Source: Acidobacteriaceae bacterium (GTDB taxonomy: Bacteria; Acidobacteriota; Terriglobia; Terriglobales; Acidobacteriaceae). Taken from it: a stretch of 57,858 nt of DNA. Each line of letters opens with the position of its first letter. Position 1 is the stretch's first letter. Below, piece by piece: positions 39,287-57,796 of this stretch. A program made the position numbers and the translations under genes. The stretch covers positions 46,201 to 104,058 of the forward strand of contig PKUV01000167.1 of assembly GCA_003131315.1 (NCBI GenBank). Direction: 5' to 3'. The notes beneath the pieces are model-generated. The model saw only the letters and a list, made by a program, of their open reading frames with translations. It was not told the origin of the DNA and did no database searches.

Positions 39287-39308
39287 CAGTCGCTCCATGC
39301 GAAGGTGT

Positions 39309-39376
39309 CTCGTATCAGGGTATCGCTTCAGCGATACCATATGATCCCGGATTGGAAGCCCCTTTAGGGGCTGGGC
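39309..39376 (-). repeat. palindromic repeat, same family as 3511-3580
   Basis: The two hairpins TATCGCTTCAGCGATA and GCCCCTTTAGGGGC are ordered as in the reverse complement of 3511-3580, and the flanking TCGTATCAGGG also matches. It lies between the divergent deoC and nucleoside hydrolase genes. Confidence 0.7.
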
Positions 39377-39500
39377 GTCGGAACCCAATTCTTCCGCGTC
39401 CCGTCCTTTGCCGTTCGATTGTACGGCAGATACGGCGAAAGATGAATTCCTGAATCGCCGCTGTTTCTCGCCGGCGTTGGGCGACCATGTGTATTTCGTC

Positions 39501-39530
39501 TTGACACTAGCGACCTTGCACGGCTACGCT
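39501..39530 (+). promoter_or_regulatory. promoter of nucleoside hydrolase A
   Basis: A perfect -35 TTGACA (39501-39506) is followed after 18 bases by TACGCT (39525-39530). The start would be near 39537, upstream of GGAGG at 39565. Confidence 0.5.
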
Positions 39531-39575
39531 CGGCGCAATTGCAACATTCTGCAATTTGCAATCTGGAGGTCACTC

Positions 39576-40699: not shown

Positions 40700-41677
40700 A
40701 TGTTCACACCCCATACTCTGGGTATTGCACTGTTCATGATGATCACGAGCGCCATTTGCTGGGGCTCCTGGGCCAACACCTACAAGGGCGTCAAGAATTA
40801 TCGCTTCGAGTTGTTTTACTGGGACTACGCCGTCGGTATTTTTCTGGTGTCGCTGATCCTCGCGTTCACCATGGGCAGCACGGGCAATGACGCTTCCAGT
40901 TTCTTGAACAATGTTCGTTCCGCCGACACCAACAACATCGTCTCCGTCATGATCGGCGGCGCCATCTTCAATCTCGCGAACCTGCTGTTGGTGGCCGCGA
41001 TTGATATGGCCGGACTCGCTATCGCCTTTCCGGTTGCTATCGGAATCGCGCTCGTGGTTGGTGTGATTTCGAGCTATGCTCTCCAGCCGAAAGGGAATGC
41101 CGTACTCCTGGCCGCGGGCGTCGTTTGCGCTCTCGTCGCCGTCGTCCTGGACGGAAAAGCCTATGGCAGTCTGGCGATCGCCGGCCGCTCGGTTTCGAAA
41201 AAGAGCATCATTGTCTGCGTGGTCTCCGGTGTTTTGATGGGGCTCTGGGCTCCCTTCGTGGCGCGAGCGATGACCAGCGGCAACACACTTGGTCCCTACA
41301 GCATTGCCGTCTTCCTCACGCTGGGCGCGCTGCTCTCGTGTCTGATCTGGAACATTTATTTCATGAGGAAACCGCTGGTCGGCGAGCCCGTGAGTTTCGC
41401 GGGCTTTTTTAGCGGACCCATTTCCGGCCACGCGCTCGGACTGCTCGGCGGATTCATCTGGGGCATCGGCATGGTTTTCAATCTCGTCGCTGCCAGCTTT
41501 ACCGGCGTAGCCATTTCGTACGCCATCGGACAATCCGCGCCGATGGTCGCCGCTCTCTGGGGCGTCCTTGCCTGGAAGGAATTTGAAGGCGCACCCGGCA
41601 AAGCCAAGATGTACCTGGTCCTGATGTTCGTCTTCTACTGTTTGGGGATCTTGCTGGTGGCAAGGGCAAATGGCTGA
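40700..41677 (+). CDS. GRP-family sugar/nucleobase permease
   Basis: The 325-residue integral membrane protein has about ten helices. It begins TPHTLGIALFMMITSAICWGSWANTYKG and has the GRP (glucose/ribose porter, DMT clan) features IDMAGLAIAFPVAIGIALVVG and YAIGQSAPMVAALWGVLAWKEF. RbsU-like members import ribose; plant ureide permeases are distant relatives. Following nucleoside hydrolase A by 47 bases, with AAGGAG before ATG, it likely takes up ribose or base released outside. That pairing is inference. Confidence 0.82.
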   Translation: MFTPHTLGIALFMMITSAICWGSWANTYKGVKNYRFELFYWDYAVGIFLVSLILAFTMGSTGNDASSFLNNVRSADTNNIVSVMIGGAIFNLANLLLVAAIDMAGLAIAFPVAIGIALVVGVISSYALQPKGNAVLLAAGVVCALVAVVLDGKAYGSLAIAGRSVSKKSIIVCVVSGVLMGLWAPFVARAMTSGNTLGPYSIAVFLTLGALLSCLIWNIYFMRKPLVGEPVSFAGFFSGPISGHALGLLGGFIWGIGMVFNLVAASFTGVAISYAIGQSAPMVAALWGVLAWKEFEGAPGKAKMYLVLMFVFYCLGILLVARANG

Positions 41678-41746: not shown

Positions 41747-43468
41747 ATGAATTGCAGGCTCGCTGCGGTTGTTGTCGCACTGTGGGTACTCACACTCACC
41801 CTCGCAGCCGCGCAACCGCATGCCGCGCCCGCCGCGCCACCACTCACTCCGCCAAAAGTTAACTTCGTCGACATCGCAGAACGCGCCGGCCTGACTGCCA
41901 AAACTGAAGATGGAGGCGACAAGACCAAGCGCTACATTATCGAAACCACCGGCAGCGGCGCCGCTTTCTTTGACTTCGACAACGACGGCTGGCCCGACAT
42001 TTTCGTAGTCAACGGCAGCCGCCTGGAAGGGTTTCCCAAGGGTCAGGAGCCGACCAGCCACCTCTACCGCAACCGCCACGATGGCACGTTCGCAGACGTC
42101 ACCCAAAAAGCCGGCGTCGGGCTCAGCGGCTGGGGCCAGGGAGTCTGCGCCGGCGACTACGATAACGACGGATTCGTGGACTTGTTCGTCACCTTCTGGG
42201 GCCACGACGTTCTCCTGCACAACAATGGCGATGGCACCTTCACCGACGTCACGCGCAAGGCAGGCCTCTGGCACGACGATGTGCGCTGGTCCACCGGCTG
42301 CGCTTTTCTGGATTACGATCGCGACGGACGCCTCGACCTCTTCATCGCCCACTACGTCGACCTCGATCTGCCGCACACGCCCGAGCCCGGCAGCGGCGCT
42401 GCCTGCCTGTGGAAAGGGATGCCGGTGATGTGCGGTCCGCGCGGACTGAAAGGCACGCACAGCGAGCTCTACCACAACAACGGCGATGGCACTTTCACCG
42501 ATGTCAGCCAGGCATCCGGGATCGCCAAGACCGACGCTTACTACTGCTTCACCGCCCTTACCGGCGACTTCGACAACGACGGCTGGCCCGACATCTATGT
42601 CACCTGCGACTCCACTCCCAGCCTGCTCTTTCACAACAACCACAACGGCACTTTCACCGAAACTGCCGTCGAGGCCGGCGTCGCCTTCAACGACGGAGGC
42701 CGCGAGCAAGCCGGCATGGGAGCCGATGCGGTCGACTACGATGGCGACGGGTGGCTCGACATCGTCAAGACCAACTTCTCCGACGATACTGCCACGCTCT
42801 ATCACAACAATCGCGACGGAACTTTCTCCGACGTCACCCCATCCGCCGGGCTAGGCAAGAATTCTCAATTCCTCGGATGGGGCACGCTCTTCCTCGACAT
42901 CGACGACGACGGCTGGCCCGACCTGTTCATGGCAAACGGTCACGTCTATCCCGAACTCGACAACAAAGGTCTCAACAACACATTCCGCGAACGTAAGATT
43001 CTTTACTGGAACGAGCACAACGGAAAATTTCGCGACATCTCACTCGATTCCGGCGCGGGCATCGCCACTCCGTTCAACAGCCACGGTGTAGCCGCCGCCG
43101 ATTTCGACAATGACGGAGCCGTCGAGATTCTTGTGAACAATAGTCATGATCGTCCCAGCCTGCTAAAAAATCTCGGCGAGCGCGGAAACTGGATTCTACT
43201 GAAATTGGAAGGAACGAAGTCCAATCGCGATGCCATCGGCGCCAAGGTCACTGTCCGCGTGGGCGATCACCAGCAGACGCAGGAGGTTCGCAGCGGCGGC
43301 GGATACATCTCGCAAAGTGACTTCCGCCTGCATTTTGGGCTGGGCAAAGCTACCAAGGCCGATGCCATCGAGATTCGCTGGCCGAGCGGTCTGGTGCAGC
43401 GCCTGGAAAACGTCGCCGGCAACCAGATCGTAAAAATCCGCGAAAGCATAGGCATTATGGAAAAGTGA
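41747..43468 (+). CDS. CRTAC1-type protein (FG-GAP/VCBS repeats and ASPIC/UnbV)
   Basis: The 573-residue exported protein has a signal peptide (LAAVVVALWVLTLTLAAA), then repeated calcium-binding blades, for example FDFDNDGWPDIFVVN, GDYDNDGFVDLFVT, DYDRDGRLDLFIAH, GDFDNDGWPDIYVT and DIDDDGWPDLFMAN. The C-terminal ASPIC/UnbV domain (about 480-570) ends in WPSGLVQRLENVAGNQIVKI. Members often sit near Oar-type receptors in Acidobacteriota and are thought to be surface or periplasmic binding proteins. It precedes the TonB-dependent receptor; role inferred from context. Confidence 0.9.
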   Translation: MNCRLAAVVVALWVLTLTLAAAQPHAAPAAPPLTPPKVNFVDIAERAGLTAKTEDGGDKTKRYIIETTGSGAAFFDFDNDGWPDIFVVNGSRLEGFPKGQEPTSHLYRNRHDGTFADVTQKAGVGLSGWGQGVCAGDYDNDGFVDLFVTFWGHDVLLHNNGDGTFTDVTRKAGLWHDDVRWSTGCAFLDYDRDGRLDLFIAHYVDLDLPHTPEPGSGAACLWKGMPVMCGPRGLKGTHSELYHNNGDGTFTDVSQASGIAKTDAYYCFTALTGDFDNDGWPDIYVTCDSTPSLLFHNNHNGTFTETAVEAGVAFNDGGREQAGMGADAVDYDGDGWLDIVKTNFSDDTATLYHNNRDGTFSDVTPSAGLGKNSQFLGWGTLFLDIDDDGWPDLFMANGHVYPELDNKGLNNTFRERKILYWNEHNGKFRDISLDSGAGIATPFNSHGVAAADFDNDGAVEILVNNSHDRPSLLKNLGERGNWILLKLEGTKSNRDAIGAKVTVRVGDHQQTQEVRSGGGYISQSDFRLHFGLGKATKADAIEIRWPSGLVQRLENVAGNQIVKIRESIGIMEK

Positions 43469-43651: not shown

Positions 43652-46600
43652 ATGTTGAAAAGATATGCGCTGCTTGTAGCGGTCGTCTGTTGCGTGTTGT
43701 CCCTCTCGTCACTCGTGTATAGCCAGGCGAACGGCAATCTCTCCGGCACGGTTGCCGATAAAACCGGCTCCGTGATTTCCGGAGCGGCGGTGAAAATTGT
43801 CTCGCAGACAACCGGCACCACCCGCGAAGTGAAGACCGATGGGTCCGGCCACTATCAGGCGCCGTTCCTCGCCGTCTCGGTTTACACCATTCGAGTGGAG
43901 TCGTCGGGCTTCCAGACCACCGAGCAAAAAGACGTCCGACTGCAAGTCGACGAACAGCGTGAAATCAATTTCACGCTCAACCCCGCCTCGGTCAGCCAGA
44001 CGGTAGAGGTGAGTGCTGAAGAGGTTGCGGTGGAAACGACGAATCCGAGCCTTGGCCAGGTCATCACAGCCGAGCAGGTCGCGGATCTCCCCTTGAACGG
44101 GCGCGACTTTGTGCAACTGGCAACCCTTACGCCGGGCACAACGCAGGAAACCAGCCCCAACAGCTTCTTCAACGGCGGCCCGAGCAGCGAAGTTTCGACC
44201 CGCGGAACGTTCTCGCTCTCCGTTGGCGGATCGCGCGCCCAGAGCACGGATTGGCTGTTCGACGGCAACGACAACAACGAACTCACCGCTGGCGGCATTG
44301 CAGTTGTGCCTTCCATCGATGCCATCCAGGAATTCAAGGTTCTGACCTACAACTACTCGGCCGAATATGGGACGCGCGCGGGTCCGACGGTTCTCGTCAC
44401 CTCGAAGTCGGGAACAAATAAGATGCACGGGTCGGTGTTCGAGTACTTCCGCAACACCAAGCTTGACGCCAAGAGCTATTTTGCGTCTTCCAAAGAGCAA
44501 TTCAATCTCAACCAGTTTGGCGGTTCGCTCGGCGGAGCGATTCAAAAGGACAAAACGTTCTTCTTCGTGGACTATGAAGGAAAGCGGCAGCGCCACGGAA
44601 TTCCGTTCATCGGATTAGTTCCGACGCAGGCAATGCTGGGTGGAGACTATAGCGCGGATCCGCTCGGATTGGCGCGTCCCATGGCTTTTGACGGTGTTAC
44701 TAAGAATGCGAACGGTTTCGGAGACATCAACAGTCCTTACACGTTCGCGCCCTTCCAGTGCGACGGCTCGGGGAACCCGCTTCCGGCGGGTGCTGGCGGT
44801 GTCCAGGCCTCGGGTGTGAACTGCAATAAAATCCCGACCAATATGTTCGATCCGACCGTAAACCCATCCGTCGATCCGACCGGCTTGGCGATGATGAAGC
44901 TCTATCCATCTCCAACTCCGAACGGGAACAATACTAGCGCGGTGACCAACTACGCCAGCGTGCCGGTGAGAAGCTTAAACGAAGGCAAGTTCGACATTCG
45001 TTTGGATCACACATTCTCCGGCAAGGACTCCGTCTTCGCGCGTTTTAGCTACGATCAAGCCAATTCGTACGTCCCGGGTGGCACGCCGGGATTTGCCGAA
45101 CAAAGTGCTTTTGCCAGCAACCAGAACATTGCCAACCACGGCCGCAACGCAGCCCTCTCGGAAACACATATTTTCAATTCCAACAACATCAACCAGCTCA
45201 CCGCGGGCTTTAGCCGCATCTTCAACCACATCCTGTCGCAGGGCAACGGCTCATGTGAAGCGGCAAACATCGGTATTCTCGGTGGGGATCTGAACACAAA
45301 ATGCGCGAACTCTCCCGCAGGTTTTGTCAACCAGTCGACCAAGGACTGTATAAGCTGCGGCATGAGTTCAACGTTAATGAACAATTACTTTGCGCTCGGG
45401 GACCGCGGTTTTGCCCCGTTCCAGGGCGGCACCAACGTGTTCACCGTCAACGATACGTTCGACATGATTCGCGGCAAGCATGACATTCGGGTTGGCATGG
45501 GCTTCCGCGCCAACCAGATGAACGTTGAGACCAACGGTTTCCAGGACGGTTTCTTCATTAACTTTGGATTGACCGGCGATGCAACGGCCGATCTTCTTCT
45601 TGGCCAGTTAGGCGGCGGCATTCACGACCAGACCTTCCTCGGTGCAACGACCGGGCGGCGCTGGAAGCTGTTCCGTCCCTTTGTGCAAGACGATTGGCGT
45701 GTCACGCCGAATCTGACCCTGAATATCGGAGTAGCGTGGGCTGTCGTAACTCCAATTTCGGAAGCGAAAGGCCGCCAGGCTAACTTCGACTTCTTTGGCG
45801 GCAAGTTTTACGTCGATGGGCCCCTCGCAGCGGCGGGCTGTACGATATGCGTTCACTCGAGTGGAACCGCCGGAATCCAGATGGACAAGACTGCGTTCGA
45901 GCCACGCATTGGACTGGCTTGGAAACCGTTCGGCTCGCAGAAGACTGCTGTACGCGCCGGTTACGCTGTATTCCACGATTCCTCCTGGAACCAAGGTTCT
46001 CAGGGACTATGGCAGAATCCGCCGTATTATGCTGAGTCCGACAACTTCTACGGGCCGTGTCCATTCAACAACGCAGGTCTCGGCAATGCTGCCGCGAACT
46101 GCGGCAACCAGCGATTGTTCACTCCTGTAATCACCACGCCTCAAGGCCCCACGTCATTCTCCGGGACTCTGCAGGCGCAGAATCTGAGCTTCAAGCAAGG
46201 GAAAGTCCAGCAGTTCAATCTCAACATTGAGCACCAGTTGCCTGGGAATATCGTCCTGACGGCTGGCTACGCAGGTTCCCGCAGTTCCCGGATTCTGACG
46301 GATGGTCTGAACATGAACGTATCGTCGCCGACGGCGTGCGCTGGTGGGCCGAACGAAACACCGGGATACACACTTGGGTGCGGGCCGGGAGGGGCGTACG
46401 TGGCGCAGAAATGGAATCCCTTGACCGGGTTCCCCTTTACGCCGGTGATTTCAAACAACAGCGATTACGGCCGCGCTCACTATGATTCCATCGAGATCAA
46501 GGCTGAGACGAAGAGCATGCGAAACGGTATTTATGCTCTTATTGGATATACCTACTCTCGTACCTTCGACAATGGCATGCCGGACGGCGTGGGAACCTTC

Positions 46601-47236
46601 CCGGGGGCAACCTACTTCCCGCTGCCTGGCACCAAGGCTGCTGATTGGGGCCTCTCGCAACTTAACCTGAACAACAGTTTCACCGCCAGCGTTCTATACG
46701 ACTTGCCCTTCGGAAAAGGAAAGAGATGGGGCAATGACTGGAACGGCGCTGTGAACGGCGTCCTTGGAAACTGGGAAGTTGACGTGATTGAGCGTGCTCA
46801 ATCCGGCTTCCCACTCTTCGTCGTCAACAGCGCTAATAGTTCCGGCGTTAACTTCCAGTGGAACGGAAACAGCCTGAATCGTCCCAACCAGGTTTGCAAC
46901 CCAAATTCCGGCCCGCACTCGGTGGGAGAGTGGTTTAACACGAGCTGCTTTGTCGCAGCGCCTGTAGGAGAGCTTGGAAACGCAAGCCGGACGCCTGTTT
47001 ATGGTCCGCGCTTTGTGAACACGGACCTGTCATTCATCAAGCACCTTCCGCTGCCTTACGAAGGCATGCGATTGGATTTCCGCGCTGAATTTTTCAATGC
47101 GTGGAACCACGCGCAGTTCTTCCTTGGTGGAGGCGCAAGCGGGATGCAGGACATGGCTTCGTCGAGCTTCGGGAAGGTAACTAACACCGTAGGCAATCCA
47201 CGCGTAATGCAGTTTGCGCTTAGGCTGAACTTCTAG
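43652..47236 (+). CDS. Oar-type TonB-dependent outer-membrane receptor
   Basis: The 1,194-residue precursor has a signal peptide (cut near SLVYS), a carboxypeptidase-regulatory Ig-like domain (about 27-110: GTVADKTGSVISGAAVKIV), a plug domain (about 135-230, QVADLPLNGRDFVQLATLTPG) and a 22-strand-type barrel ending in the outer-membrane signature FALRLNF with terminal Phe. It imports large solutes using TonB energy. Between a CRTAC1 protein and several nucleoside hydrolases, it could import nucleic-acid-derived or glycosylated substrates; that is inference. No SusD gene is present. Confidence 0.93.
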   Translation: MLKRYALLVAVVCCVLSLSSLVYSQANGNLSGTVADKTGSVISGAAVKIVSQTTGTTREVKTDGSGHYQAPFLAVSVYTIRVESSGFQTTEQKDVRLQVDEQREINFTLNPASVSQTVEVSAEEVAVETTNPSLGQVITAEQVADLPLNGRDFVQLATLTPGTTQETSPNSFFNGGPSSEVSTRGTFSLSVGGSRAQSTDWLFDGNDNNELTAGGIAVVPSIDAIQEFKVLTYNYSAEYGTRAGPTVLVTSKSGTNKMHGSVFEYFRNTKLDAKSYFASSKEQFNLNQFGGSLGGAIQKDKTFFFVDYEGKRQRHGIPFIGLVPTQAMLGGDYSADPLGLARPMAFDGVTKNANGFGDINSPYTFAPFQCDGSGNPLPAGAGGVQASGVNCNKIPTNMFDPTVNPSVDPTGLAMMKLYPSPTPNGNNTSAVTNYASVPVRSLNEGKFDIRLDHTFSGKDSVFARFSYDQANSYVPGGTPGFAEQSAFASNQNIANHGRNAALSETHIFNSNNINQLTAGFSRIFNHILSQGNGSCEAANIGILGGDLNTKCANSPAGFVNQSTKDCISCGMSSTLMNNYFALGDRGFAPFQGGTNVFTVNDTFDMIRGKHDIRVGMGFRANQMNVETNGFQDGFFINFGLTGDATADLLLGQLGGGIHDQTFLGATTGRRWKLFRPFVQDDWRVTPNLTLNIGVAWAVVTPISEAKGRQANFDFFGGKFYVDGPLAAAGCTICVHSSGTAGIQMDKTAFEPRIGLAWKPFGSQKTAVRAGYAVFHDSSWNQGSQGLWQNPPYYAESDNFYGPCPFNNAGLGNAAANCGNQRLFTPVITTPQGPTSFSGTLQAQNLSFKQGKVQQFNLNIEHQLPGNIVLTAGYAGSRSSRILTDGLNMNVSSPTACAGGPNETPGYTLGCGPGGAYVAQKWNPLTGFPFTPVISNNSDYGRAHYDSIEIKAETKSMRNGIYALIGYTYSRTFDNGMPDGVGTFPGATYFPLPGTKAADWGLSQLNLNNSFTASVLYDLPFGKGKRWGNDWNGAVNGVLGNWEVDVIERAQSGFPLFVVNSANSSGVNFQWNGNSLNRPNQVCNPNSGPHSVGEWFNTSCFVAAPVGELGNASRTPVYGPRFVNTDLSFIKHLPLPYEGMRLDFRAEFFNAWNHAQFFLGGGASGMQDMASSSFGKVTNTVGNPRVMQFALRLNF

Positions 47237-47583: not shown

Positions 47584-49797
47584 ATGCATTCATTCGTGAA
47601 TCGAATCTCCAATTTCCACTGGCTTGCGGCATCGCTCACTGTGTTGCTCGTCTCAATCCCCGTTTCCGCCGACGAGTGGAAACCTCGCCATGATCTCGTA
47701 TCGCATACAGGCGTCATGAATCTGACCGAGCCTCCTCCGCCGAGCGAGGTCTTTTTCGCTGGTCCCGCTGCTTCTTCCGATCAGTCCACATGGCTTCATG
47801 GATTAAAGACCTGGCGAAGCGATCGTCTGCGGCTGTTGCGCTATTCAGGTGCGCAGTATGAGCGTCCTGAGTTGCTGTGGACGCAACGCATCTTCTCGCA
47901 GACACAGCTGCTGATCTGGGATCGGAGTTTGTACGATCCGGACAAGGGCGAGTACACGGTCGACCGCTTCCTTGCGGAGACCGAGGCGCGAATCGGGCCA
48001 ATCGACGCGGTGTTGATCTGGCATGTCTATCCCAATCTCGGAGTCGACGACCGGAATCAGTTCGATATGCTGCGCGATCTTCCGGGTGGAACCGCTGGCG
48101 TCAGGAAGATGGTCGAGCAGTTTCACAGCCGGGGCGTGAAGGTATTCTTCCCGCTGCTGATGTGGGACACGGGAACGCGGAACGAAGGCGCGGCGTTCTC
48201 GGCGACGATGGCGCAGTTGCTGAAGGATGTCGACGCCGATGGCATCAACTTCGATACGCTGGAGAGCGTACCGCCGGGCTTTCGCGAGGCCTCGGACGCG
48301 ATTGGCCATGCCCTCGCGCTTGAGCCTCAGTTTCAGCCGCGCGACGCTTCAATTGCATGGACGAACATCAGTTGGAACGACTGGGTCACATGGGAAGGGA
48401 AGCAGTATCCATTTATTCCGATGGTCAGCAAGGACAAGTGGATGGAGTCGCGCCACACCGCGAATGTTACGGACCGCTTCACTCGCGACAAAACCGACAG
48501 TTTGCAGCATGCCTTTTTCAACGGCCAGGGGTATGCGACGCTCGAAAATCTCTGGGGCTTCTGGTACGAGAATAATCCGCACGATGCGGAAGCCCTGCTA
48601 CGCTTCACCCGCATCGAGCGCGCCATGGCCGATTATCTGGTAAGTCCCGGTTGGGAACCGCACACTCCGGTCTTGCAAGCAGGCGTATTCGCAAGCCGCT
48701 TCCCCGCGGCGAAGGGGACGTTGTGGACGATCGTCAACCGTAATGAGTACGACGTCTCCGGTTCTCAGATCGAGATCGCAAGCCCTCCTGGAGCGCATTA
48801 TTACGATCTGTGGCACGGGGCGGAATTGACGCCCGTCGTAGCTAACGGCAAAGCCACTTTGAGCTTTGATCTTGAAGGTCTTGGGTACGGCGCACTTCTG
48901 GCGACGGAAGAGCAGCCGGACGATAGTGTCCAGAAATTTCTTTCCTACATGGCGGAGCGCTCCAAACGCCCTCTTGCCAGTTATTTGCGGGAATGGAAAG
49001 CTGCGCCCCAGACTCTGGTTGAAATACCGGCCACCGCCACGTCGCAGTCGGCGCCGGAGGGAATGGTGCGCATTCCCGACGGTGATTACGACTTTCAGGT
49101 GAGCGGCATTGAAATCGAGGGCGGCAATGATCCTGGGGCAGACGTGCAGTATCCGTGGGAAGATACGGCGCGTCGTTTCCATCGGCATCGAATGCACGTG
49201 CATAGTTTTTATATCGATCGGACGCCAGTCACGAATGCTGAGTTCAAAAGATTCTTGAACTCGACGCACTATCGCCCGAAGGACGATCACAACTTCCTGC
49301 GCGCCTGGAAGAATGGCAGTTATCCGGAAGGTTGGGACAACAAGCCCGTCACATGGGTTTCGATCGAGGATGCGCGCGCCTACGCCGCATGGAACCAGAA
49401 ACGTCTTCCCCATGAGTGGGAGTGGCAATACGCGGCCCAATCCACCAGCGGTCGTGCGTATCCTTGGGGGAACGACTGGGACCCTCACGCTCTTCCCCCA
49501 GTGGATTCGGGACCTGCTATGCGTCCACCCGCCGACGTGACAGCGTTCCCGAAGGGTGCAAGTGCGTTTGGCGTTCTCGATCTGGTTGGCAACGTGTCTC
49601 AGTGGACCGACGAATATCGCGACCCGCATACCCGCGCGGCGATCATTCGTGGTGGCGCATCTTATCAACCAAGCGGTTCGATTTGGTACTTCCCGCAAAC
49701 TTATCGGTTGGATGAACACCAAAAGTATCTCTTGATGTCTCCTGGACACGACCGATCGGGAACGGTTGGCTTTCGATGTATTGTCGATGCGCCGTGA
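47584..49797 (+). CDS. exported TIM-barrel-like / SUMF1-domain fusion protein
   Basis: The 737-residue precursor has a signal peptide (LAASLTVLLVSIPVSA). Residues about 40-420 look like a glycoside-hydrolase-type barrel (DAVLIWHVYPNLG, GVKVFFPLLMWDTGT, DADGINFDTLESVP). Residues about 490-735 form a formylglycine-generating-enzyme (SUMF1) domain: MVRIPDGDY, YIDRTPVTNAEFKRF, RLPHEWEWQYAA, YPWGNDWD and terminal GTVGFRC. The position that carries catalytic Cys in true FGEs is replaced (RGGASYQ), so formylglycine formation is unlikely. It may be a carbohydrate or glycoside enzyme with a binding domain. Nucleoside hydrolase B follows it. Confidence 0.78.
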   Translation: MHSFVNRISNFHWLAASLTVLLVSIPVSADEWKPRHDLVSHTGVMNLTEPPPPSEVFFAGPAASSDQSTWLHGLKTWRSDRLRLLRYSGAQYERPELLWTQRIFSQTQLLIWDRSLYDPDKGEYTVDRFLAETEARIGPIDAVLIWHVYPNLGVDDRNQFDMLRDLPGGTAGVRKMVEQFHSRGVKVFFPLLMWDTGTRNEGAAFSATMAQLLKDVDADGINFDTLESVPPGFREASDAIGHALALEPQFQPRDASIAWTNISWNDWVTWEGKQYPFIPMVSKDKWMESRHTANVTDRFTRDKTDSLQHAFFNGQGYATLENLWGFWYENNPHDAEALLRFTRIERAMADYLVSPGWEPHTPVLQAGVFASRFPAAKGTLWTIVNRNEYDVSGSQIEIASPPGAHYYDLWHGAELTPVVANGKATLSFDLEGLGYGALLATEEQPDDSVQKFLSYMAERSKRPLASYLREWKAAPQTLVEIPATATSQSAPEGMVRIPDGDYDFQVSGIEIEGGNDPGADVQYPWEDTARRFHRHRMHVHSFYIDRTPVTNAEFKRFLNSTHYRPKDDHNFLRAWKNGSYPEGWDNKPVTWVSIEDARAYAAWNQKRLPHEWEWQYAAQSTSGRAYPWGNDWDPHALPPVDSGPAMRPPADVTAFPKGASAFGVLDLVGNVSQWTDEYRDPHTRAAIIRGGASYQPSGSIWYFPQTYRLDEHQKYLLMSPGHDRSGTVGFRCIVDAP

Positions 49798-49952: not shown

Positions 49953-51056
49953 ATGGTGATTCGCTGCACGCGGAAACTCGCGCTGATGTCTTTGCTCGCT
50001 CTTTTGCTCGCAACCGCTGCCTCGGCCCAGAAAATCAAAGTCATCGTCGATCAGGACGCTCGCGGGCCCGGCACCAGCGACCAACAAGCGCTGCTGGTTT
50101 TCCTTCAGTCGGAGAAGTTTGACGTTCTGGGCATCACTACCGTCAGCGGCGATCAATGGGTGAAGGAAGAGACGCAGCACACCCTCCGCATGTTGGAGAT
50201 TGCCGGGCGCACCGACGTCCCTGTCATCCAGGGCGCCGAGTTCCCGCTGCTCAACAGCAAAGAAGAGACCGAGCGATGGGAAGCTCTCTACGGTAAGTTC
50301 GAATACAAGGGATGCTGGACCGAACACTTCGCCGCGAAGCGCTCCACCGTTTACGACGAGCCCTACCATGCGCCCGACGTTGTGCCTCCCATGAAGGAAG
50401 GCGAGCCCCACATTCACGCGCAGCCCGGCACCGCCGCGGAATTCATTGTGCAGATGGTGCACAAGTATCCCGGAGAGGTTGTGCTGTGGGCGGGTGGCCC
50501 GCTGACGAATTATGCGCTGGCGCTGAAGCTCGACCCGTCGGTCGCGACGCTCGCGAAAGAGTTCGTCATGATGGGTGGAGGACTCTACGCCGACAAGGGC
50601 GCGATCGATCCCGGCGCCATCGATGCCCGCCGCGAATTTAACTGGTGGTTTGATCCGGAAGCGGCTCGCATCGTCTTGCGCGCGCCTTGGAAGAACGTGA
50701 CCATCACTCCCATCGATATCTCGGTCAAAACGCGCTACACGAGCGAGATGAAAGCCACCATTACCAAGGCGGGCACTCCGGTGACAGAGTATCTGGAGAA
50801 GTATTCGTTGCCCGGCTATATGTGGGACGAAATCGCCGGCGCCGCGCTTATCGATCCCTCCATCATCACCAGCCAGAAGCAGCTCTACATGGATATCGAC
50901 GTCGATCACGGCGCCAGCTACGGCAAGACAATCTTCTGGAACTCCACCGCCAAGGTTCCACCCTACCTGCGGCTGGCTAATGTCCAGTTCGACATTGATG
51001 CGGAGAAGTTCTACAAAATCTACATCGACCTGATGACGCGCCCTGCCCGGAAATAG
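49953..51056 (+). CDS. exported nucleoside-hydrolase-fold protein B (divergent)
   Basis: The 367-residue precursor has a signal peptide cut after ASA (residue 25). The Ca/ribose motif reads VDQDARGPGTSDQQ (32-45), so Asp8, Asp10 and Asp14 equivalents remain, Asp15 is Gln44, and four residues are inserted. The substrate Asn loop reads VSGDQW in place of VxGN. GGPLTNYALAL and REFNWWFDPEAA are kept; the usual catalytic HD is WD (MWDEIAG, about 290). These changes make a typical nucleoside hydrolase activity uncertain. ATG 49953 follows GGGGA. It is closest to protein D. Confidence 0.82.
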   Translation: MVIRCTRKLALMSLLALLLATAASAQKIKVIVDQDARGPGTSDQQALLVFLQSEKFDVLGITTVSGDQWVKEETQHTLRMLEIAGRTDVPVIQGAEFPLLNSKEETERWEALYGKFEYKGCWTEHFAAKRSTVYDEPYHAPDVVPPMKEGEPHIHAQPGTAAEFIVQMVHKYPGEVVLWAGGPLTNYALALKLDPSVATLAKEFVMMGGGLYADKGAIDPGAIDARREFNWWFDPEAARIVLRAPWKNVTITPIDISVKTRYTSEMKATITKAGTPVTEYLEKYSLPGYMWDEIAGAALIDPSIITSQKQLYMDIDVDHGASYGKTIFWNSTAKVPPYLRLANVQFDIDAEKFYKIYIDLMTRPARK

Positions 51057-51193
51057 TGGAGCGACGGGCGTCCCCGCCCGTCCGTGGCGTAACTGAAATG
51101 CTCGCGAATCCAGCCCCGGAGGGGCGAACCAGCTTAGCCCAGCGCTTTAGCGCTGGGAAAGGGGAACAAATGATTCAAGTCCCGGAGGGACGA
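51057..51193. repeat. family-A fragment plus CAGC-type palindromic repeats
   Basis: A partial family-A unit (51057-51085, GTGGAGCGACGGGCGTCCCC) is followed by small hairpins CCAGCCCCGGAGGGGCG (51110-51126) and CCCAGCGCTTTAGCGCTGGG (51138-51157), and by TCAAGTCCCGGAGGGACG (51175-51192). The last of these lies within the coding start of nucleoside hydrolase C. Confidence 0.65.
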
Positions 51194-52273
51194 CCCAGTT
51201 CTCGCGCACACTCTCTAGGTCTGCTCCTTTTGCTCCTATTAGCGACCTGCTTCGCCTCAGCCCAGCCGCGCCGCAAGGTCATCATCAATCAGGATTGCTC
51301 GGGTCCTGGTGGCAGCAACCTGCAGACCCTCCTGGTGATGATCCAGTCCCCGCAGGTCGAGGTACTTGGGATCACGGTGGTCAGCGGAGACCAGTGGCGC
51401 GACGAAGAAGTCACGCACACGCTTCGCCTGCTCGAAATCATTGGACGCACCGACATTCCCGTAGTGCCCGGCGCGGCGTTCCCGCTGGTCCGGCGCCGCG
51501 AGGAAGCGCAGCAGTGGCAGGAGCGCTACGGAAAAGTTGGCTACGCCGGCGCCTGGGACGATCGCTGGTGGCACGAGCCCTTCGTCGTACCCACACTCCC
51601 GGAAGGGCAGCCTACCACCAAGCCCGCCGATGAAGATGCCGCCCATTTTCTGATTCGAATGGTGCACAAGTATCCCCACGAGGTCACGATCTACGAAGGC
51701 GGCCCCATGACCAACCTCGCGCTGGCCATTTCACTCGATCCGCAATTCCCCGAACTGGCAGAGGAGTTGGTCTTCATGGGCGGAAGCATTGGGCCCCAAA
51801 CCGACAACGCCGAGTTCATCAATAACCCGCGCCACGAATTCAATTTCTGGTTTGATCCCGAGGCCGCGCACGTCGTGTTGCGCGCGCCGTGGAAGAAGAT
51901 CGTCTGCACGCCCACTGACATCTCGGTCAAGACGCGCCTGACGCCTGCCATGATCCAGCAGATCGACAAGGCCGGAACTCCTCTGGCGCACTACGTTGCC
52001 CGCTTTTACCAGTCGTTTCCGGGCGCCGATATTATGTGGGACGAGCTCGCAGCGGCCGCTTGGATCGATCCGTCGATCATCACGAAACGAGAGACGCGCT
52101 ACATGAGTGTGGATCTTGATCGGGGAGCCGGATACGGCAACACGCTGACCTGGTCGGAGAAGGATAAACCAGCACGGACGGTGCAGCCGGTAGAGATCCA
52201 GGTTGACTTGGACAAAGAAAAGTTTTATCGGATGTTCGTGAGCCTGATGAGCGGCGCCACGCCCGCCCGCTGA
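51170..52273 (+). CDS. exported nucleoside-hydrolase-fold protein C (divergent)
   Basis: The 367-residue precursor has a signal peptide (LGLLLLLLLATCFASA). It is the most changed copy: the motif INQDCSGPGGSNLQ has Asn, Asp, Asn and Leu in place of the four family Asp residues. It shares VSGDQW, GGPMTNLALAI, HEFNFWFDPEAA and MWDELAAAAWIDPS with the other divergent copies. Loss of these Asp residues argues against calcium-dependent nucleoside hydrolysis. The first residues (MIQVPEGRPSS) are encoded by a dispersed repeat. GGGGA lies before ATG 51170. Its closest match is protein E. Confidence 0.8.
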   Translation: MIQVPEGRPSSRAHSLGLLLLLLLATCFASAQPRRKVIINQDCSGPGGSNLQTLLVMIQSPQVEVLGITVVSGDQWRDEEVTHTLRLLEIIGRTDIPVVPGAAFPLVRRREEAQQWQERYGKVGYAGAWDDRWWHEPFVVPTLPEGQPTTKPADEDAAHFLIRMVHKYPHEVTIYEGGPMTNLALAISLDPQFPELAEELVFMGGSIGPQTDNAEFINNPRHEFNFWFDPEAAHVVLRAPWKKIVCTPTDISVKTRLTPAMIQQIDKAGTPLAHYVARFYQSFPGADIMWDELAAAAWIDPSIITKRETRYMSVDLDRGAGYGNTLTWSEKDKPARTVQPVEIQVDLDKEKFYRMFVSLMSGATPAR

Positions 52274-52278
52274 TCGCT

Positions 52279-53910
52279 TCAAGGCTGCGGCGGCGAGGCA
52301 GAATTCTTGTTTCGTAGCGCAATCACAAACTGCTGAATCTCGCGCCGCTCGCGTTCGGTATCTTCCTTTGTTGTCTTAGCTAATCGATCATGGAGTTGAA
52401 GTTGTTCTTGAGCCCTCGCTTTATTGCCGGTTCGCAGGTAAGCCTGAGCTAGTCGATAGTGCGCCTCTTCAATCGTCTGATCGAGTTCGGGACTGACTTC
52501 GATCGCCTTTTGATATGCGGAAATTGCCCGCGAAAAATCCTCGCGCTGCGAATAGAGAATCCCCAGTTGCAGATACGCGGCACCGAGTTTGGGATCGAGA
52601 TGCACCGCTTTCTGCAGCAGCGACTCCACGCGTACTGAACGCTCAATGTCACCGTCCACCGAACCCGCCGATTGTTTCCACAGACTGACGGCGTAATAGT
52701 AGTTCGCGAGCGCATTGTCCGGTTGCAGCTGTGCGAGTCGCCCCAATCTGTCCACCGATTTTTCTGATGGAGTGGTCTCCGCACCTTGCATTTTCCCCAG
52801 AAAAAGGTACGGAGTCGGATTGTCGGGAGCGAGATCGGACGCGTTCACGAGACACTGCGCCGCTTGATCGTAGGAACCGCGAGCGTACCAGGCTACGCCG
52901 AGCGCAACCAGCATCCGCACGGACTTTGAAAACAGGCGATTGCCTTTTGTGAAAACCTCGGTGGCCGGTTCCAACGCGCGATGAGTTAGAAGTTCGGTTC
53001 CCCAATCGAACAGGTCCGCTTCGCTGGGGTCAAGTTCCGCCGCGCGCTGGTACTCCCGAACCGCCCCCAGTGGATCGCCTAGCTTCTCCTCGACGTCGCC
53101 CAGCAGGTGATGAGGTTCGGGATCACTGGGTTTGATCCGGGAAGCACGTTCCAGGTAGGGAACTGCTTCCGTAGCCTTTCCGTTGTCGACGAGTAACTTT
53201 CCCAGCTGCCAATTCGCCTCAAAGTTCTCGGGGGCCCGGACCACTGCGTCTCGCAAAGAACTCTCTGGCGCAGCGGATGTTGCCGACTTAGACCCAGCGC
53301 TCGATTCCTTGCTTAATGAAACCGTTGCCTTGGCGAGCGCTTCGGTGGTTCGCAGTACGGTATCGGAACCGTGTCCACCGGAATTGGTCGCTTGTGTCAC
53401 ACCCGCTACGGTGAACTGAGGTTCGTCGAAGAACTCGGGTGCTTCCGCACTCGGTTTTCCTGTCGCCGGTGTTCCAGGAGGAGGGTTTTGCGGTTGAGAT
53501 GCTCTGGGAGAAACGAGAGCCAGGTCGATATTCTTGGTCACTTTCTGCGCGAGGCTGACGGGACCGACGATTGCCTCACCATATCCCTTTATTTCTGCGC
53601 GCAGAGTGTATGCGCCCTCTCGAAGCGCCACAAAGCGATACGCTCCTTCCGAATCCGTGTGCGTGATCTGGGTCTGTGTCGCGGGGGTCTCCGTTCCAGT
53701 CGCGAGTTGCAAGAGGACGGTCGCGTTCGCCACCGGCCTGCCATTGGAATCGCGCACGTACCCCTGCAGCGTCCCGTGCGCCGTTCCTTGCACCGCGGCG
53801 ATACCCGCCGGTTCTGGAGACTGTGCTCGAACTGGAGCGAGAGCCGCCATTGCCGCCAGAACCCAGACGGCAACATGAATTCCAGTTTGTCTGAAGTGGC
53901 CGGCGGTCAC
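52279..53910 (-). CDS. exported CarboxypepD_reg / TPR protein
   Basis: The 543-residue precursor has a signal peptide (HVAVWVLAAMAALAPVRA), a carboxypeptidase-regulatory-like domain (about 40-125: GTLQGYVRDSNGRPVANATV, AYRFVALREGAYTLRAEIKGY), a Ser/Pro/Ala linker, then about seven or more TPR repeats (about 230-520), for example NFEANWQLGKLLVDNGKATEAVPYL and AAYLQLGILYSQREDFSRAISAYQKAIEV. It is common near Oar-type receptors in this group. GTG 53910 is chosen because AGGAG lies 9 bases upstream. It converges with protein C (5-base gap) and diverges from protein D. Confidence 0.85.
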   Translation of the reverse strand: MTAGHFRQTGIHVAVWVLAAMAALAPVRAQSPEPAGIAAVQGTAHGTLQGYVRDSNGRPVANATVLLQLATGTETPATQTQITHTDSEGAYRFVALREGAYTLRAEIKGYGEAIVGPVSLAQKVTKNIDLALVSPRASQPQNPPPGTPATGKPSAEAPEFFDEPQFTVAGVTQATNSGGHGSDTVLRTTEALAKATVSLSKESSAGSKSATSAAPESSLRDAVVRAPENFEANWQLGKLLVDNGKATEAVPYLERASRIKPSDPEPHHLLGDVEEKLGDPLGAVREYQRAAELDPSEADLFDWGTELLTHRALEPATEVFTKGNRLFSKSVRMLVALGVAWYARGSYDQAAQCLVNASDLAPDNPTPYLFLGKMQGAETTPSEKSVDRLGRLAQLQPDNALANYYYAVSLWKQSAGSVDGDIERSVRVESLLQKAVHLDPKLGAAYLQLGILYSQREDFSRAISAYQKAIEVSPELDQTIEEAHYRLAQAYLRTGNKARAQEQLQLHDRLAKTTKEDTERERREIQQFVIALRNKNSASPPQP

Positions 53911-53987
53911 GCGGTTCGACTCCTGGGAGAAAGGGAGAAAGCGGCAGCTCCAAAACAAAATGGAATCAGCCTTGGTCGTCGCTCGTC

Positions 53988-54016
53988 ATTCTATTCGCGC
54001 TTAACCTCATCTGCAA
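53988..54016 (-). promoter_or_regulatory. promoter of the TPR gene (divergent)
   Basis: On the minus strand, TTGCAG (54016-54011) is followed after 17 bases by TAGAAT (53993-53988). The start would lie near 53981, giving a leader of about 70 bases. Confidence 0.5.
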
Positions 54017-54038
54017 TTCATGCATTCCCATCGAAAAA

Positions 54039-54068
54039 TTGGCAGAGCGCGTGAATAGGATTTACAAT
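54039..54068 (+). promoter_or_regulatory. promoter of nucleoside hydrolase D (divergent)
   Basis: TTGGCA (54039-54044) is followed after 18 bases by TACAAT (54063-54068). The start would lie near 54075, 80 bases before the ATG at 54155. It is back to back with the minus-strand promoter of the TPR gene within about 80 bases. Confidence 0.55.
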
Positions 54069-54154
54069 GGCACGCCTTCCATGCGGGATTGTCGGGGGCC
54101 CGAATCGTTTCTATCAATCACGGGGGCACATCAATTGTCGAGGGGGTCCGAGCC

Positions 54155-55267
54155 ATGAAGGGAAGAGGCATCGTCCGGCTGCCGATTGCTTTGCTGTTCG
54201 TTGTTCTTACGTTCGCGAATCATCTGCTGGCGCAAAAAATCAAGGTCATTGTCGATCAGGACGCGCGCGGCCCGGCCACAACCGACATGCAGTCCATCCT
54301 GATTTTCCTCCAGTCGGACAAGTTCGACGTCCTGGGCATCACCACCGTAAGCGGCGATCAGTGGGTGAAGGAAGAAACGCAGCGCACATTGCGGTTGCTT
54401 GAGATCGCGGGCCGCACCGATGTTCCGGTCGCGGAAGGCGCAGAGTTCCCGCTGCTGAATTCCAAAGAAGAGTCCGAGCGCTGGGAAGCTCTCTACGGGA
54501 AGTTCCGCTACAAGGGCTGCTGGAGCGATTTTTCCAAGCGCCCGGACGGCACTCCGCCGGCCTTCCGCGAGGGGTATCACGATCCGGACGTGATTCCTCC
54601 GCTGGTGGAGGGCGCACCTCATACCAAGCCGCTCGACGAAACCGCCGCCCATTTCATCGTCCGCATGGTGCGCCAGTATCCGGGCGAAGTCGTGGTATGG
54701 GCCGGTGGTCCGCTGACCAATATCGCTCTCGCCCTGCGGCTTGATCCGGAAGTGGCAGCCCTCGCGAAAGAGTTGGTCCTGATGGGCAGCGGAATGTACG
54801 CCAACAACGGTGGAATCAGCGGCATTGATGGACGCCGGGAATTCAACTGGTGGTTCGATCCGGAAGCCGTACGCATGGTCATGCGCGCGCCCTGGAAAAA
54901 GATTACGATCACGCCCATCGACATTTCCGTCAAAACCCTGGTGAACCCAGCCGTCAAAGCGGCCATCGCCAAGGTGGATACGCCGGTCGCGCGCTACCTC
55001 ACCCAATACTCCGTCGAAAGCTTTATGTGGGATGAACTCTCCGCGGCGGCCATGGTGGATCCTTCCATCATCACGGGACAGAAACAGCTCTACGTGGACA
55101 TCGACATTGATCACGGGCCGAGCTACGGCGAAACGCTCTTCTGGGAGCCGGGGACGGAACTTCCGCCCTACGAGAGACTCGCGACGGTTCAGTTCGATGT
55201 GGACGCACAAAAGCTGTACGATCTCTACGTCAAGCTGATGACGCAACCGCCAAAGCCCGCACGTTAG
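54155..55267 (+). CDS. exported nucleoside-hydrolase-fold protein D (divergent)
   Basis: The 370-residue precursor has a signal peptide (LPIALLFVVLTFANHLLA). The motif VDQDARGPATTDMQ keeps three Asp residues with Met at the fourth. It shares VSGDQW, GGPLTNIALAL, REFNWWFDPEA, ITPIDISVKT and MWDELSAAAMVDPS with B. Compared with B the N-terminal half is nearly identical in pattern (DVLGITTVSGDQWVKEET), pointing to recent duplication. The start at 54155 is preferred because GGGGG and the signal peptide fit. It faces the TPR gene across a divergent promoter region. Confidence 0.82.
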   Translation: MKGRGIVRLPIALLFVVLTFANHLLAQKIKVIVDQDARGPATTDMQSILIFLQSDKFDVLGITTVSGDQWVKEETQRTLRLLEIAGRTDVPVAEGAEFPLLNSKEESERWEALYGKFRYKGCWSDFSKRPDGTPPAFREGYHDPDVIPPLVEGAPHTKPLDETAAHFIVRMVRQYPGEVVVWAGGPLTNIALALRLDPEVAALAKELVLMGSGMYANNGGISGIDGRREFNWWFDPEAVRMVMRAPWKKITITPIDISVKTLVNPAVKAAIAKVDTPVARYLTQYSVESFMWDELSAAAMVDPSIITGQKQLYVDIDIDHGPSYGETLFWEPGTELPPYERLATVQFDVDAQKLYDLYVKLMTQPPKPAR

Positions 55268-55324
55268 GGGTTGTTTGATTAAGTCTTTGTTGGCAAGAAT
55301 GGATGCTATGAAGGGGAGATCCTC

Positions 55325-55384
55325 AGCGGCTAAAGCCGCTTGTGTTGCGGCTTCTAACGGCATGGCTGAAGCCATGCCCCTTCA
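55325..55384. repeat. palindromic repeat between D and F
   Basis: Two perfect hairpins, AGCGGCTAAAGCCGCT (55326-55341) and GGCATGGCTGAAGCCATGCC (55360-55379), lie in the gap after protein D. They are of the same general kind as the units at 3511 and 39309 but of different sequence. Confidence 0.65.
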
Positions 55385-55452
55385 AAGCTGACCGGGAACC
55401 AACTCAATCAGAGTTTCTTGGCGAGCACGACAGCATTCAAGGAGCAGCGCAC

Positions 55453-56652
55453 GTGGATTCAACAAAAGAAATCTTCGGCATCACCCGGCGCCAATTTGTA
55501 ACGTCGTCAGCCGCCGTCTTGGCCACCAGCGGTTTCGCCCACGAGGCCAACGCCGTCACCGCACTGGCCAGACAGCCGTCAGAGCAGGGAAAGTCCGGCC
55601 CGGGAGCTGGTCGCGGTCCCTTTCGCGTCATTATTGACACCGACCCCGGAGTAGACGACGCACTGGCGCTCTTGCTGGCCATGCGCTCGCCGGAATTGAA
55701 GATTGAAGCCATCACTCCGGTCGCCGGAAACGTGCCGCTCGATCTGACGCTGCCGAACGCTTTGCGCATGGTGGAAATCGCCGGCCGCACCGATATTCCC
55801 GTTGCCGCGGGCGCGCGGGCCCCGCTGGTGCGCCGCCTGGTGACAGCAACTTACGCGCACGGCGAGAACGGATTGGGAGGCGCCGTCTTTCCTGAGCCGA
55901 CGACCAAACCGGTCGCAACGCCTGCCGCCGATCTCATTCGCCAGATCGTTCGCAAGTATCCCGGCGAAGTGACACTGATTACCATTGGCCCGCTCACGAA
56001 CATTGCTAGTGCTCTCAATTCCGATCCAGAACTCGCGAGCATGGTTCGAGGGCTGGTCATGATGGGCGGCTCGCTTTCGGGAGGAAATATCACGCCCGCC
56101 GCCGAGTTCAATGTTTACGTGGATCCGGAAGCTGCGCGCATTGTCTTTCAATCCGGAATACCCGTGACCATGGTTGGTCTCGACGTCACGCGCCGGACCT
56201 CTCTTACCGACGACCATGTGCGCGCGCTCGAAGCCGCCCAGAACCCCGTCAGCCAGGCTGCGGCCAAGATCGGACGCAATGCGATCAACCACAACCGCGA
56301 GGGCGGATATTTGGTCGGACCGAACATGCACGACTCGCTCGCAGTTGCCGGATTTCTCGATCCGGCGATTCTGAAATTGCAGGACTATTACATTGATGTC
56401 GAGACCACAGGCGAACTCACCGCCGGCGAAACTCTGGGCTACAGTCCCGTTGCCGGCGATTTGCGGCGCCGCCCCGGAATGGAGAAAGATGCAACGAACA
56501 TGCCGATTCGCGGATCGGCTCCGACTCTGGCCAGCACAAAAACGTCTCCCGTGCTGCGTGATAAATTTGTACCCAACACGAAGGTCGCGGTGGAAGTTGA
56601 TTCCGCGAGGTTTTTCGACCTGCTCATTGGGCGGTTATCGGGAAGCAAGTAA
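55453..56652 (+). CDS. Tat-exported nucleoside hydrolase F (canonical motif)
   Basis: The 399-residue precursor has a twin-arginine signal (ITRRQFVTSSAAVLATSGF). The domain has the full motif DTDPGVDDALAL, VAGNV, IGPLTNIASAL, AAEFNVYVDPEAA, GLDVTRR and the catalytic HD in NMHDSLAVAG, so it should be an active nucleoside hydrolase. Tat export implies folding before transport. The GTG start at 55453 has AAGGAG at 55439-55444 upstream. It is placed between the divergent copies D and E in the same direction. Confidence 0.88.
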   Translation: MDSTKEIFGITRRQFVTSSAAVLATSGFAHEANAVTALARQPSEQGKSGPGAGRGPFRVIIDTDPGVDDALALLLAMRSPELKIEAITPVAGNVPLDLTLPNALRMVEIAGRTDIPVAAGARAPLVRRLVTATYAHGENGLGGAVFPEPTTKPVATPAADLIRQIVRKYPGEVTLITIGPLTNIASALNSDPELASMVRGLVMMGGSLSGGNITPAAEFNVYVDPEAARIVFQSGIPVTMVGLDVTRRTSLTDDHVRALEAAQNPVSQAAAKIGRNAINHNREGGYLVGPNMHDSLAVAGFLDPAILKLQDYYIDVETTGELTAGETLGYSPVAGDLRRRPGMEKDATNMPIRGSAPTLASTKTSPVLRDKFVPNTKVAVEVDSARFFDLLIGRLSGSK

Positions 56653-56692
56653 AGAGTTTCTGCGAGAAGTTCGACAATTCCGAGGTGCACGA

Positions 56693-57796
56693 ATGAAGCT
56701 GGGCCAATTCCGGGGTTTTACCGCGGTGGCAACTGTAATTCTAATGACATGCCTTGTGTCCCAAAGCCAAGACAAACGCAAGATCATCATCGATCAGGAC
56801 GCGGCCGGACCTGCCGGCACTGACCAGCAAGCGATACTGTTGCTCATCCAGTCTCGGCAGACGGAAGTCTTAGGCATCACGGTGGTGACGGGCGATGCAT
56901 GGCTCACCGAAGAAGTCGCGCACACGCTGCGCATGCTCGAGCTCATCGGACGAACCGACATTCCCGTCGTACGCGGAGCTGAGTATCCGCTGGTCAGAAC
57001 CAAAGAAGAGACGGAGCAGTGGGAGCAACGCTATGGCTCCGTGGCCTGGCTGGGGGCTTGGACTCCGCGCGTGTATCACGCGCCCCGCGAACTGGGAGCG
57101 ATGCCGGAAGGGAAGCCGACCACCAAGGCCGCCGACGAAGACGCTGCCCACTTTCTGGTACGCATGGTCCGTAAGTATCCGCACGAAGTCACTATCTATG
57201 AGGGCGGGCCCATGACAAACCTGGCGCTCGCGATCTCCATCGACACGGAATTTGCCAGCTTGGCCAAAGAGTTGGTGTTCATGGGCGCCAGCCTGAATCC
57301 GCAGACCGCCGATCCCGAGTTCGCAAACACGCCCCGCCGCGAATTCAACCTCTGGTTCGATCCGGAAGCGGCTCACATTGTGCTGCGGGCGCCGTGGAAA
57401 AAGATTGTCTGCACCCCGGTGGATATTTCCGTGAAGACAAGAATGACAAACGAACTGATCGACAAGATCAAGGCCGGCCATTCGCCATCAGCGCAATACA
57501 TCGGCAAGTATTCGCGCCTGCGTGGCTCCTATAACTATCTGTGGGACGAACTCGCGTCGGCGGCCTGGCTTGACCCAACCCTGATTACGAAGAAAGAAAA
57601 CCGCTTCATGGACGTGAACCTGGATCGCGGCCCCGGCTACGGAGACACCCTCACCTGGTCAGATCGGGATAAGCCCAAGCGCGATGTCCAGTCCGTGGAA
57701 GTGCAGTTCGACTTGGATACCGATAAGTTCTATAAGTTGTTTGTGGACCTGTTGACGGCACCGACGCCGAAGCGTAGCAGGCCGGCAACGCCTTAG
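56693..57796 (+). CDS. exported nucleoside-hydrolase-fold protein E (divergent)
   Basis: The 367-residue precursor has a short signal peptide (TAVATVILMTCLVSQSQ). The motif IDQDAAGPAGTDQQ keeps three Asp residues with Gln at the fourth. VTGDAW replaces the VxGN loop. GGPMTNLALAI, REFNLWFDPEAA, CTPVDISVKT and WDELASAAWLDPT are shared with copy C, its nearest relative. Start at ATG 56693 has GAGG 7 bases upstream, 40 bases after the stop of F. The gene ends 62 bases before the window edge, so a further copy may follow outside. Confidence 0.82.
   Translation: MKLGQFRGFTAVATVILMTCLVSQSQDKRKIIIDQDAAGPAGTDQQAILLLIQSRQTEVLGITVVTGDAWLTEEVAHTLRMLELIGRTDIPVVRGAEYPLVRTKEETEQWEQRYGSVAWLGAWTPRVYHAPRELGAMPEGKPTTKAADEDAAHFLVRMVRKYPHEVTIYEGGPMTNLALAISIDTEFASLAKELVFMGASLNPQTADPEFANTPRREFNLWFDPEAAHIVLRAPWKKIVCTPVDISVKTRMTNELIDKIKAGHSPSAQYIGKYSRLRGSYNYLWDELASAAWLDPTLITKKENRFMDVNLDRGPGYGDTLTWSDRDKPKRDVQSVEVQFDLDTDKFYKLFVDLLTAPTPKRSRPATP

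Follow-up and report, generated by a model that had tools for sequence, protein, structure and literature searches.

Nucleoside hydrolases (NHs) are recognised by the fingerprint DxDxxxDD with fixed spacing, and their groups differ in the residue ahead of the last Ca-binding Asp, which is His in group I and Trp in group II. Group II enzymes are dimeric and purine-specific. The subject here is a set of four NH-fold paralogues, B, C, D and E, which depart from both groups. They are encoded in a 57,858-nucleotide stretch of contig PKUV01000167.1 from an Acidobacteriaceae bacterium (assembly GCA_003131315.1), referred to as the window.

The residues of the normal site are described for RihA, where Ca is bound by Asp10, Asp15, Asp241 and the carbonyl of Thr124, the water is held by Asp10 and Asn166, and O5' is contacted by Asn158 and Glu164 (excerpts of PMC2898832). 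It has been reported that both active-site His of group II hydrolases are replaced by Trp, one of them just ahead of the last Ca-binding Asp, and that the base is activated by stacking. Simulations implicate the active-site His in a relay that also involves the third fingerprint Asp (both from excerpts of PMC8910321). In a docking study of the T. b. brucei inosine-adenosine-guanosine nucleoside hydrolase (IAG-NH; 4I71), the pocket comprises Asp14, Asp40 and Trp260 (excerpts of PMC4660014). XopQ and Sde_0182 are NH-fold proteins described as being without nucleosidase activity (excerpts of PMC8910321).

Active site of the divergent paralogues

The open reading frames (ORFs) of B to E are intact, each running from an ATG to one stop on the plus strand, and each product has a Sec-type signal peptide as read by eye. 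The NH fold spans the entire domain in all four, which score 182-207 bits against PF01156 (cut-off 34.2), and the AlphaFold2 model of B has a predicted local distance difference test (pLDDT) score of 88.4. The NCBIfam equivalog models for RihA, RihB, RihC and UriH are not reached (70.7-117.4 bits against cut-offs of 382-459). Fourteen comparisons with orthologues gave ratios of non-synonymous to synonymous substitution (dN/dS) of 0.049-0.154, showing purifying selection. Pairwise identity is 66-67% between B and D, 62-63% between C and E and 45-49% between the two pairs; identity to the two canonical NH copies of the window is 28-33%. PF01156 is found at eight places in the genome.

For the family alignment, 206 NH-like ORFs were reduced to 174 by discarding short, over-long, multi-hit and duplicate ones, and one typed reference was added to give 175 rows. 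Removal of four fragments left 171 rows in the tree, 128 divergent and 43 other. Residues are numbered by a Crithidia sequence.

The sequence-only reading had proposed a changed signature in the four paralogues, Asp for Asn in the VxGN loop and WD in place of HD. The signature was confirmed in each (Table 1), the loop reads VSGD or VTGD in all four, and Trp precedes the last Asp in all four, where group I has His. The proposed fold marker GGPLTN is present in B and D and reads GGPMTN in C and E. Relative to the fingerprint, the spacing in B to E is longer by three residues, which the alignment places ahead of the Asp14 column, and Asp14 itself is replaced by Ser or Thr. Asp8, Asp10 and Asp15 are retained in B, D and E; C has Asn at positions 8 and 15, with Asp10 and the last Asp still present. 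The positions of Asp10, Asp242, Glu166 and Asn168 are retained in all four, so that B, D and E keep the three predicted Ca-ligand Asp (10, 15 and 242).

This pattern holds across the divergent proteins. Asp10, Asn168 and Asp242 are invariant in the 128 rows, and Glu directly follows Asp242 in every one (WDE). Ser or Thr stands at position 14 in 127 rows, while Glu166 and Trp241 are each found in 126; such near-invariance argues that the signature is not due to chance. At position 15, 83 rows have Asp and 45 have Asn; at position 39 the counts are 113 for Asp and 15 for Asn. Asn160 is lost. The 43 non-divergent rows all have Asp14 and Asp15, with Asn39 and Asn160 each in 42 and Trp241 in one. 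All 15 rows with Asn39 carry Asn15 and all 83 with Asp15 carry Asp39, never reversed on the tree; with five independent pairs and a median p of 0.25, no association is claimed.

Read against the residue roles in RihA, B, D and E would still have the Ca and water residues but have lost the His acid, Asp14 and one of the O5' ligands. The joint loss of Asp14 and His would be expected if the relay were no longer in use. Candidates for the second Trp of group II, in the beta3-alpha3 loop, are Trp109 and Trp122 of B, both within the crossover region. At the level of sequence, the Ser/Thr in place of Asp14, the GP loop, the loss of Asn160 and the invariant WDE are unusual features without precedent in the literature compared.

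Phylogeny and distribution of the clade

A separate subfamily had also been proposed, and the trees bear this out. The 128 rows with the divergent signature form one side of a single branch with support 95 (fasttree), and a 58-row mixture-model tree groups 37 divergent rows, including members from Rhizobium, Devosia and Novosphingobium, with support 98. On these comparisons B to E belong to a distinct, deep clade with a changed active site. Each falls in a separate tree group with its own motif, which indicates that they are old duplicates. Two long, uncertain rows (Paraburkholderia and L024) adjoin the clade and have Trp241, yet keep Asp14 and Asn39. Their placement suggests that the Trp would have arisen first, an order that depends on long branches.

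The earlier suggestion of a different substrate or chemistry stands in part. A deep clade with a changed site makes altered specificity or leaving-group chemistry likely, but the normal site is not abolished, since Asp10, Asp242, Glu166 and Asn168 are retained, as is Asp15 in B, D and E.

Of 300 genomes sampled within the window's family, 123 contain members of the divergent clade (E <= 1e-60). At E <= 1e-30, 19 of 297 phylum genomes match, the window's own included; 15 were counted as divergent clade and four as other NH types. More distant members occur in alphaproteobacteria, the three members there being without Glu166. Plasmid relatives at 36-38% identity carry the annotation 'nucleoside hydrolase' only, and their context in Rhizobium and Devosia did not reveal an obvious functional neighbour. 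The Novosphingobium and Paraburkholderia neighbourhoods were read as raw ORFs, the records being without gene annotation there. A limited search of the open-licence literature found no publication describing the clade.

A further NH subgroup carries a DTDFxxxPxDD-type motif, has Tyr ahead of the last Asp and shows Trp in the column of B122 (L054:15627-16685, L058:8970-10049, L060:10029-11108, L025, L026, L027 and L036). It adjoins a PF07168 permease in genomes G041, G253 and G214. L058:6657-8966 and L060:7716-10025 are 770-aa ORFs with several NH-domain matches, which may join two divergent NH domains in a single frame; they were among the ORFs excluded from the alignment.

Gene neighbourhood

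The neighbours were compared across 76 loci from one genome scan, representing the best 80 of 544 confirmed stretches and biased to near relatives; among them L064 and L068 overlap, and L058 and L060 have much sequence in common. The features of the window are collected in Table 1. The interval of 49953-57796 assigned to the four paralogues also contains a canonical NH and a TPR protein on the minus strand.

Table 1. Features of the window; clusters and counts refer to the 76 loci
Feature	Coordinates	Strand	Basis or remark
B, divergent NH-fold protein	49953-51056	+	ORF, PF01156, signal peptide by eye, AlphaFold2 model
B signature DQDARGPGTSDQ	50049-50084	+	
B VSGD Asp codon	50151-50153	+	
B WDE	50823-50831	+	
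C, divergent NH-fold protein, Asn at Asp8 and Asp15 positions	51170-52273	+	ORF, PF01156, family alignment
C signature NQDCSGPGGSNL	51287-51322	+	
D, divergent NH-fold protein	54155-55267	+	ORF, PF01156
D signature DQDARGPATTDM	54254-54289	+	
E, divergent NH-fold protein	56693-57796	+	ORF, PF01156
E signature DQDAAGPAGTDQ	56792-56827	+	
Canonical NH paralogue between D and E (DTDPGVDDA, HD)	55342-56652	+	ORF, start uncertain; leader like that of twin-arginine translocation (TAT), by eye
TPR protein with carboxypeptidase-regulatory-like domain	52279-53958	-	Cluster 2, 36/76
Protein with C-terminal FGE-sulfatase (SUMF1-like) domain	47584-49797	+	Cluster 14, 4/76
Oar-like outer-membrane beta-barrel protein	43652-47236	+	PF25183 and CarboxypepD_reg; cluster 1, 42/76
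FG-GAP/ASPIC-UnbV protein	41747-43468	+	Cluster 3, 36/76
PF07168 ureide/sugar permease	40700-41677	+	Cluster 5, 13/76
Second canonical-type NH (DTDPGTDDA; Tyr ahead of last Asp)	39408-40652	+	ORF coordinates
deoC, deoxyribose-phosphate aldolase	38213-39388	-	TIGR00126, 164.2 bits (cut-off 117.3); cluster 13, 5/76
Aldehyde dehydrogenase-family protein, behind deoC	35595-38033	-	Same strand as deoC

Upstream of B to E the window holds deoC, the permease and the second canonical NH. Downstream of E, on the same contig, lie genes for Q_salvage, a pyrimidine-nucleoside phosphorylase (PyNP), NupC and two amidohydrolases. On another contig (L003), a canonical-type NH is followed by an NCS1 permease and a dihydropyrimidinase. 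Among the further neighbour clusters, a ribokinase-type kinase is found in 26 loci, deoC-type aldolases in nine, Q_salvage in seven, NupC and a TRZ/ATZ amidohydrolase in six each, NCS1 in five and pyrimidine-nucleoside phosphorylase in three. The aldolases comprise cluster 13 (five loci), which the window deoC matches at up to 89%, and cluster 17 (four loci), three members of which exceed the TIGR00126 cut-off. Ten of the clusters relate to nucleosides, ribose or nucleobases, and 48 of the loci contain one or more of them. The genes for the kinase, deoC, nucleoside phosphorylase, NupC and NCS1 point to nucleosides or ribosides rather than other glycosides, and judged in this way the context looks like nucleoside catabolism.

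The kinase lies directly behind a divergent gene in eight loci. In the subset of loci scored (L042 and L054 are among the unscored), the kinases of L055, L041, L107 and L135 exceed the ribokinase TIGR02152 cut-off of 299.65 bits; those of L040, L095 and L100, cut by contig ends, score 223-262 bits, and that of L084, at 151.0 bits, may act on another sugar. The order divergent NH, ribokinase, deoC is found in L041. In L135 (G103), which has no exact 200-mer in common with the 76 loci, an Oar-like protein, a canonical NH, a divergent NH and a ribokinase follow on one strand. A kinase, NCS1, a C-N hydrolase, an amidohydrolase and NupC adjoin the NHs of L134 (G084), a locus partly identical in sequence to L102, as L136 is to L099.

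Divergent paralogues often stand several side by side. Four of the 76 loci repeat the arrangement B, C, D, canonical, E, namely L037, L039, L044 (E cut by the locus end) and L056 (D split into two ORFs). Three more (L038, L045 and L046) have the same order without D, and L043 has B, C, D and the canonical gene up to the contig end. The PF07168 permease is found in 13 of 15 phylum genomes with a divergent NH against 18 of 282 without, and within the family in 12 of 13 against 8 of 18 (Fisher p 0.008, uncorrected for kinship); these co-occurrences were counted by hand and include matches below the Pfam cut-off.

Some other neighbours are recorded for completeness. The TPR/carboxypeptidase-regulatory protein and an ASPIC/TPR protein (L113:235-4152), mostly on the opposite strand, are each beside NH genes in 36 loci. 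The 737-aa FGE-domain protein has no Pfam match in its N-terminal half, and its link to the NH genes is weak. PADLOC gave no match for B to E or for this FGE-like neighbour, and a defence-system role for B to E was dropped. Elsewhere in the genome of the window (C113), a ribokinase-type kinase adjoins a second PF07168 permease at a contig end (L137:15-1818), a pair that may act as a partner of the window locus. The L056 homologue of the Q_salvage protein has a TAT-type leader, which is odd for a tRNA-nucleoside enzyme.

Proposed function and known systems

B, D and E are probably exported N-ribosidases of the NH fold in a nucleoside-scavenging locus; the same is less certain of C. Export and the outer-membrane protein would allow enzyme and substrate to meet in the periplasm. 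Ca would be bound at the Asp10, Asp15 and Asp242 positions and, by analogy with RihA, a water held by Asp10 and Asn168 would attack the anomeric carbon. The base may then depart by stacking on Trp291, perhaps also on Trp122 or Trp69 of B, in the manner of group II enzymes and in place of the His241/Asp14 proton relay. With a carboxylate lost at 14 and one gained at 39, the pocket may be adjusted on its 2'-OH side. The pentose could be taken up through a carrier such as the PF07168 permease and passed to the ribokinase-type kinase or DeoC, and the base could be processed by the nucleobase genes found beside some homologues. This group II-like leaving-group strategy would have been reached separately from group II.

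In a rival reading, B to E would be hydrolases specialised for 2'-modified (2'-deoxy or 2'-O-methyl) nucleosides, the 2'-OH side of the pocket having been rebuilt by the loss of Asp14 and the gain of Asp39, the latter perhaps a substitute Ca ligand. The deoC gene of the window adjoins a canonical NH, the nine loci with deoC-type aldolases and the gene order of L041 agree with it, and a deoC-like aldolase is found beside a soil-metagenome 2'-O-methyluridine hydrolase, while a close relative of a second such enzyme clusters with deoC and ribokinase genes (excerpts of PMC6278475). This is unlikely, as the kinase, which suits ribose, is commoner than deoC; deoC is nearest a canonical NH in the window and in the five cluster 13 loci; and IAG-NH, with Asp40 too, acts on ribonucleosides. 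A stricter form is less likely again: the clade would be dedicated to exported hydrolysis of 2'-modified nucleosides, 2'-deoxyribonucleosides first, with Asp14 given up, the position-39 carboxylate replacing the missing 2'-OH on Ca and Trp stacking replacing the relay. If it were true, periplasmic hydrolysis could let soil Acidobacteriota use nucleosides from DNA as food, DeoC finishing the sugar. A non-catalytic binding protein, as the sequence-only reading suggested, with a riboside or sugar as ligand, or a regulatory partner of the canonical NH encoded between D and E, is distinctly unlikely for the set and is kept chiefly for C, which may be non-catalytic. The Asn8 and Asn15 of C, the Asn15 of 45 divergent rows and the precedent of XopQ and Sde_0182 favour it; against it stand the three invariant residues of the 128 rows and seven loci, several of them short contigs, where a divergent gene precedes the kinase with no other NH type.

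Salvage of queuosine, other 7-deazaguanosine-type or modified tRNA nucleosides is suggested by the Q_salvage (PF10343) gene about 5.4 kb past E (L113:5492-6541) and in other loci, and by G214, a genome of another family, which has Q_salvage, divergent NHs and a PF07168 permease within about 18 kb. In E. coli, preQ0/preQ1 but not Q itself was transported by a PF07168 permease of Acidobacteriota encoded next to qng1 (excerpts of PMC11130926). As a main role this is very unlikely, because tgt and a queC-type gene are present in the genome, so that salvage is not forced, and Q_salvage is rare: it matches 10 of 297 phylum genomes (eight above the cut-off) and, among the 13 family genomes sampled that carry divergent NHs, one, which is that of the window. 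Least credible is the earlier proposal of a non-nucleoside glycosidase, which is highly improbable, with only the altered pocket and the loss of Asn160 in its favour. WD has a precedent in group II and VxGD probably has one too, so these changes alone do not imply a non-nucleoside substrate. The 48 loci with nucleoside, ribose or nucleobase clusters weigh against it, and no recurring cluster of another glycoside class was found among the commoner neighbour clusters, which were those annotated.

Taken together, a large, conserved NH-fold clade is without a residue of the family's recognition fingerprint, yet lies in nucleoside-catabolic loci of soil bacteria. The clade is a natural setting in which to ask whether an enzyme with Trp stacking can do without Asp14 and the His relay. 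It also names candidate enzymes for nucleosides poorly handled by known hydrolases, perhaps unusual ones.

Among known systems, RK9NH, the 2'-O-methyluridine hydrolase, and LbNH/AgNH are likened to the locus by their neighbour genes: RK9NH adjoins a deoC-like aldolase, and deoC and ribokinase genes cluster with a close relative of AgNH (excerpts of PMC6278475). Group I enzymes (CfNH, RihA, RihB/YeiK and plant NRH) differ from B to E, in which the His acid, Asp14 and Asn160 are missing and Asn39 is changed to Asp. With group II (trypanosomal IAG-NH; PDB 1hoz/4i71), B to E have in common the Trp directly before the last Ca-binding Asp, added length in the beta3-beta4 crossover and probably the Asp of the loop, if Asp40 of the T. 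b. brucei pocket is taken by numbering as the VxGN position; they differ in having Ser or Thr where the IAG-NH pocket has Asp14. XopQ and Sde_0182 are similar in their NH fold and altered site, whereas B to E retain the nucleophile-water residues and lie in nucleoside-catabolic loci. The ribose-utilisation system (rus) of Bacteroides combines an outer-membrane receptor, a nucleoside hydrolase, a ribokinase and a permease in a single locus. The present locus differs in having several NH paralogues of another clade and an Oar-like protein in place of SusCD.

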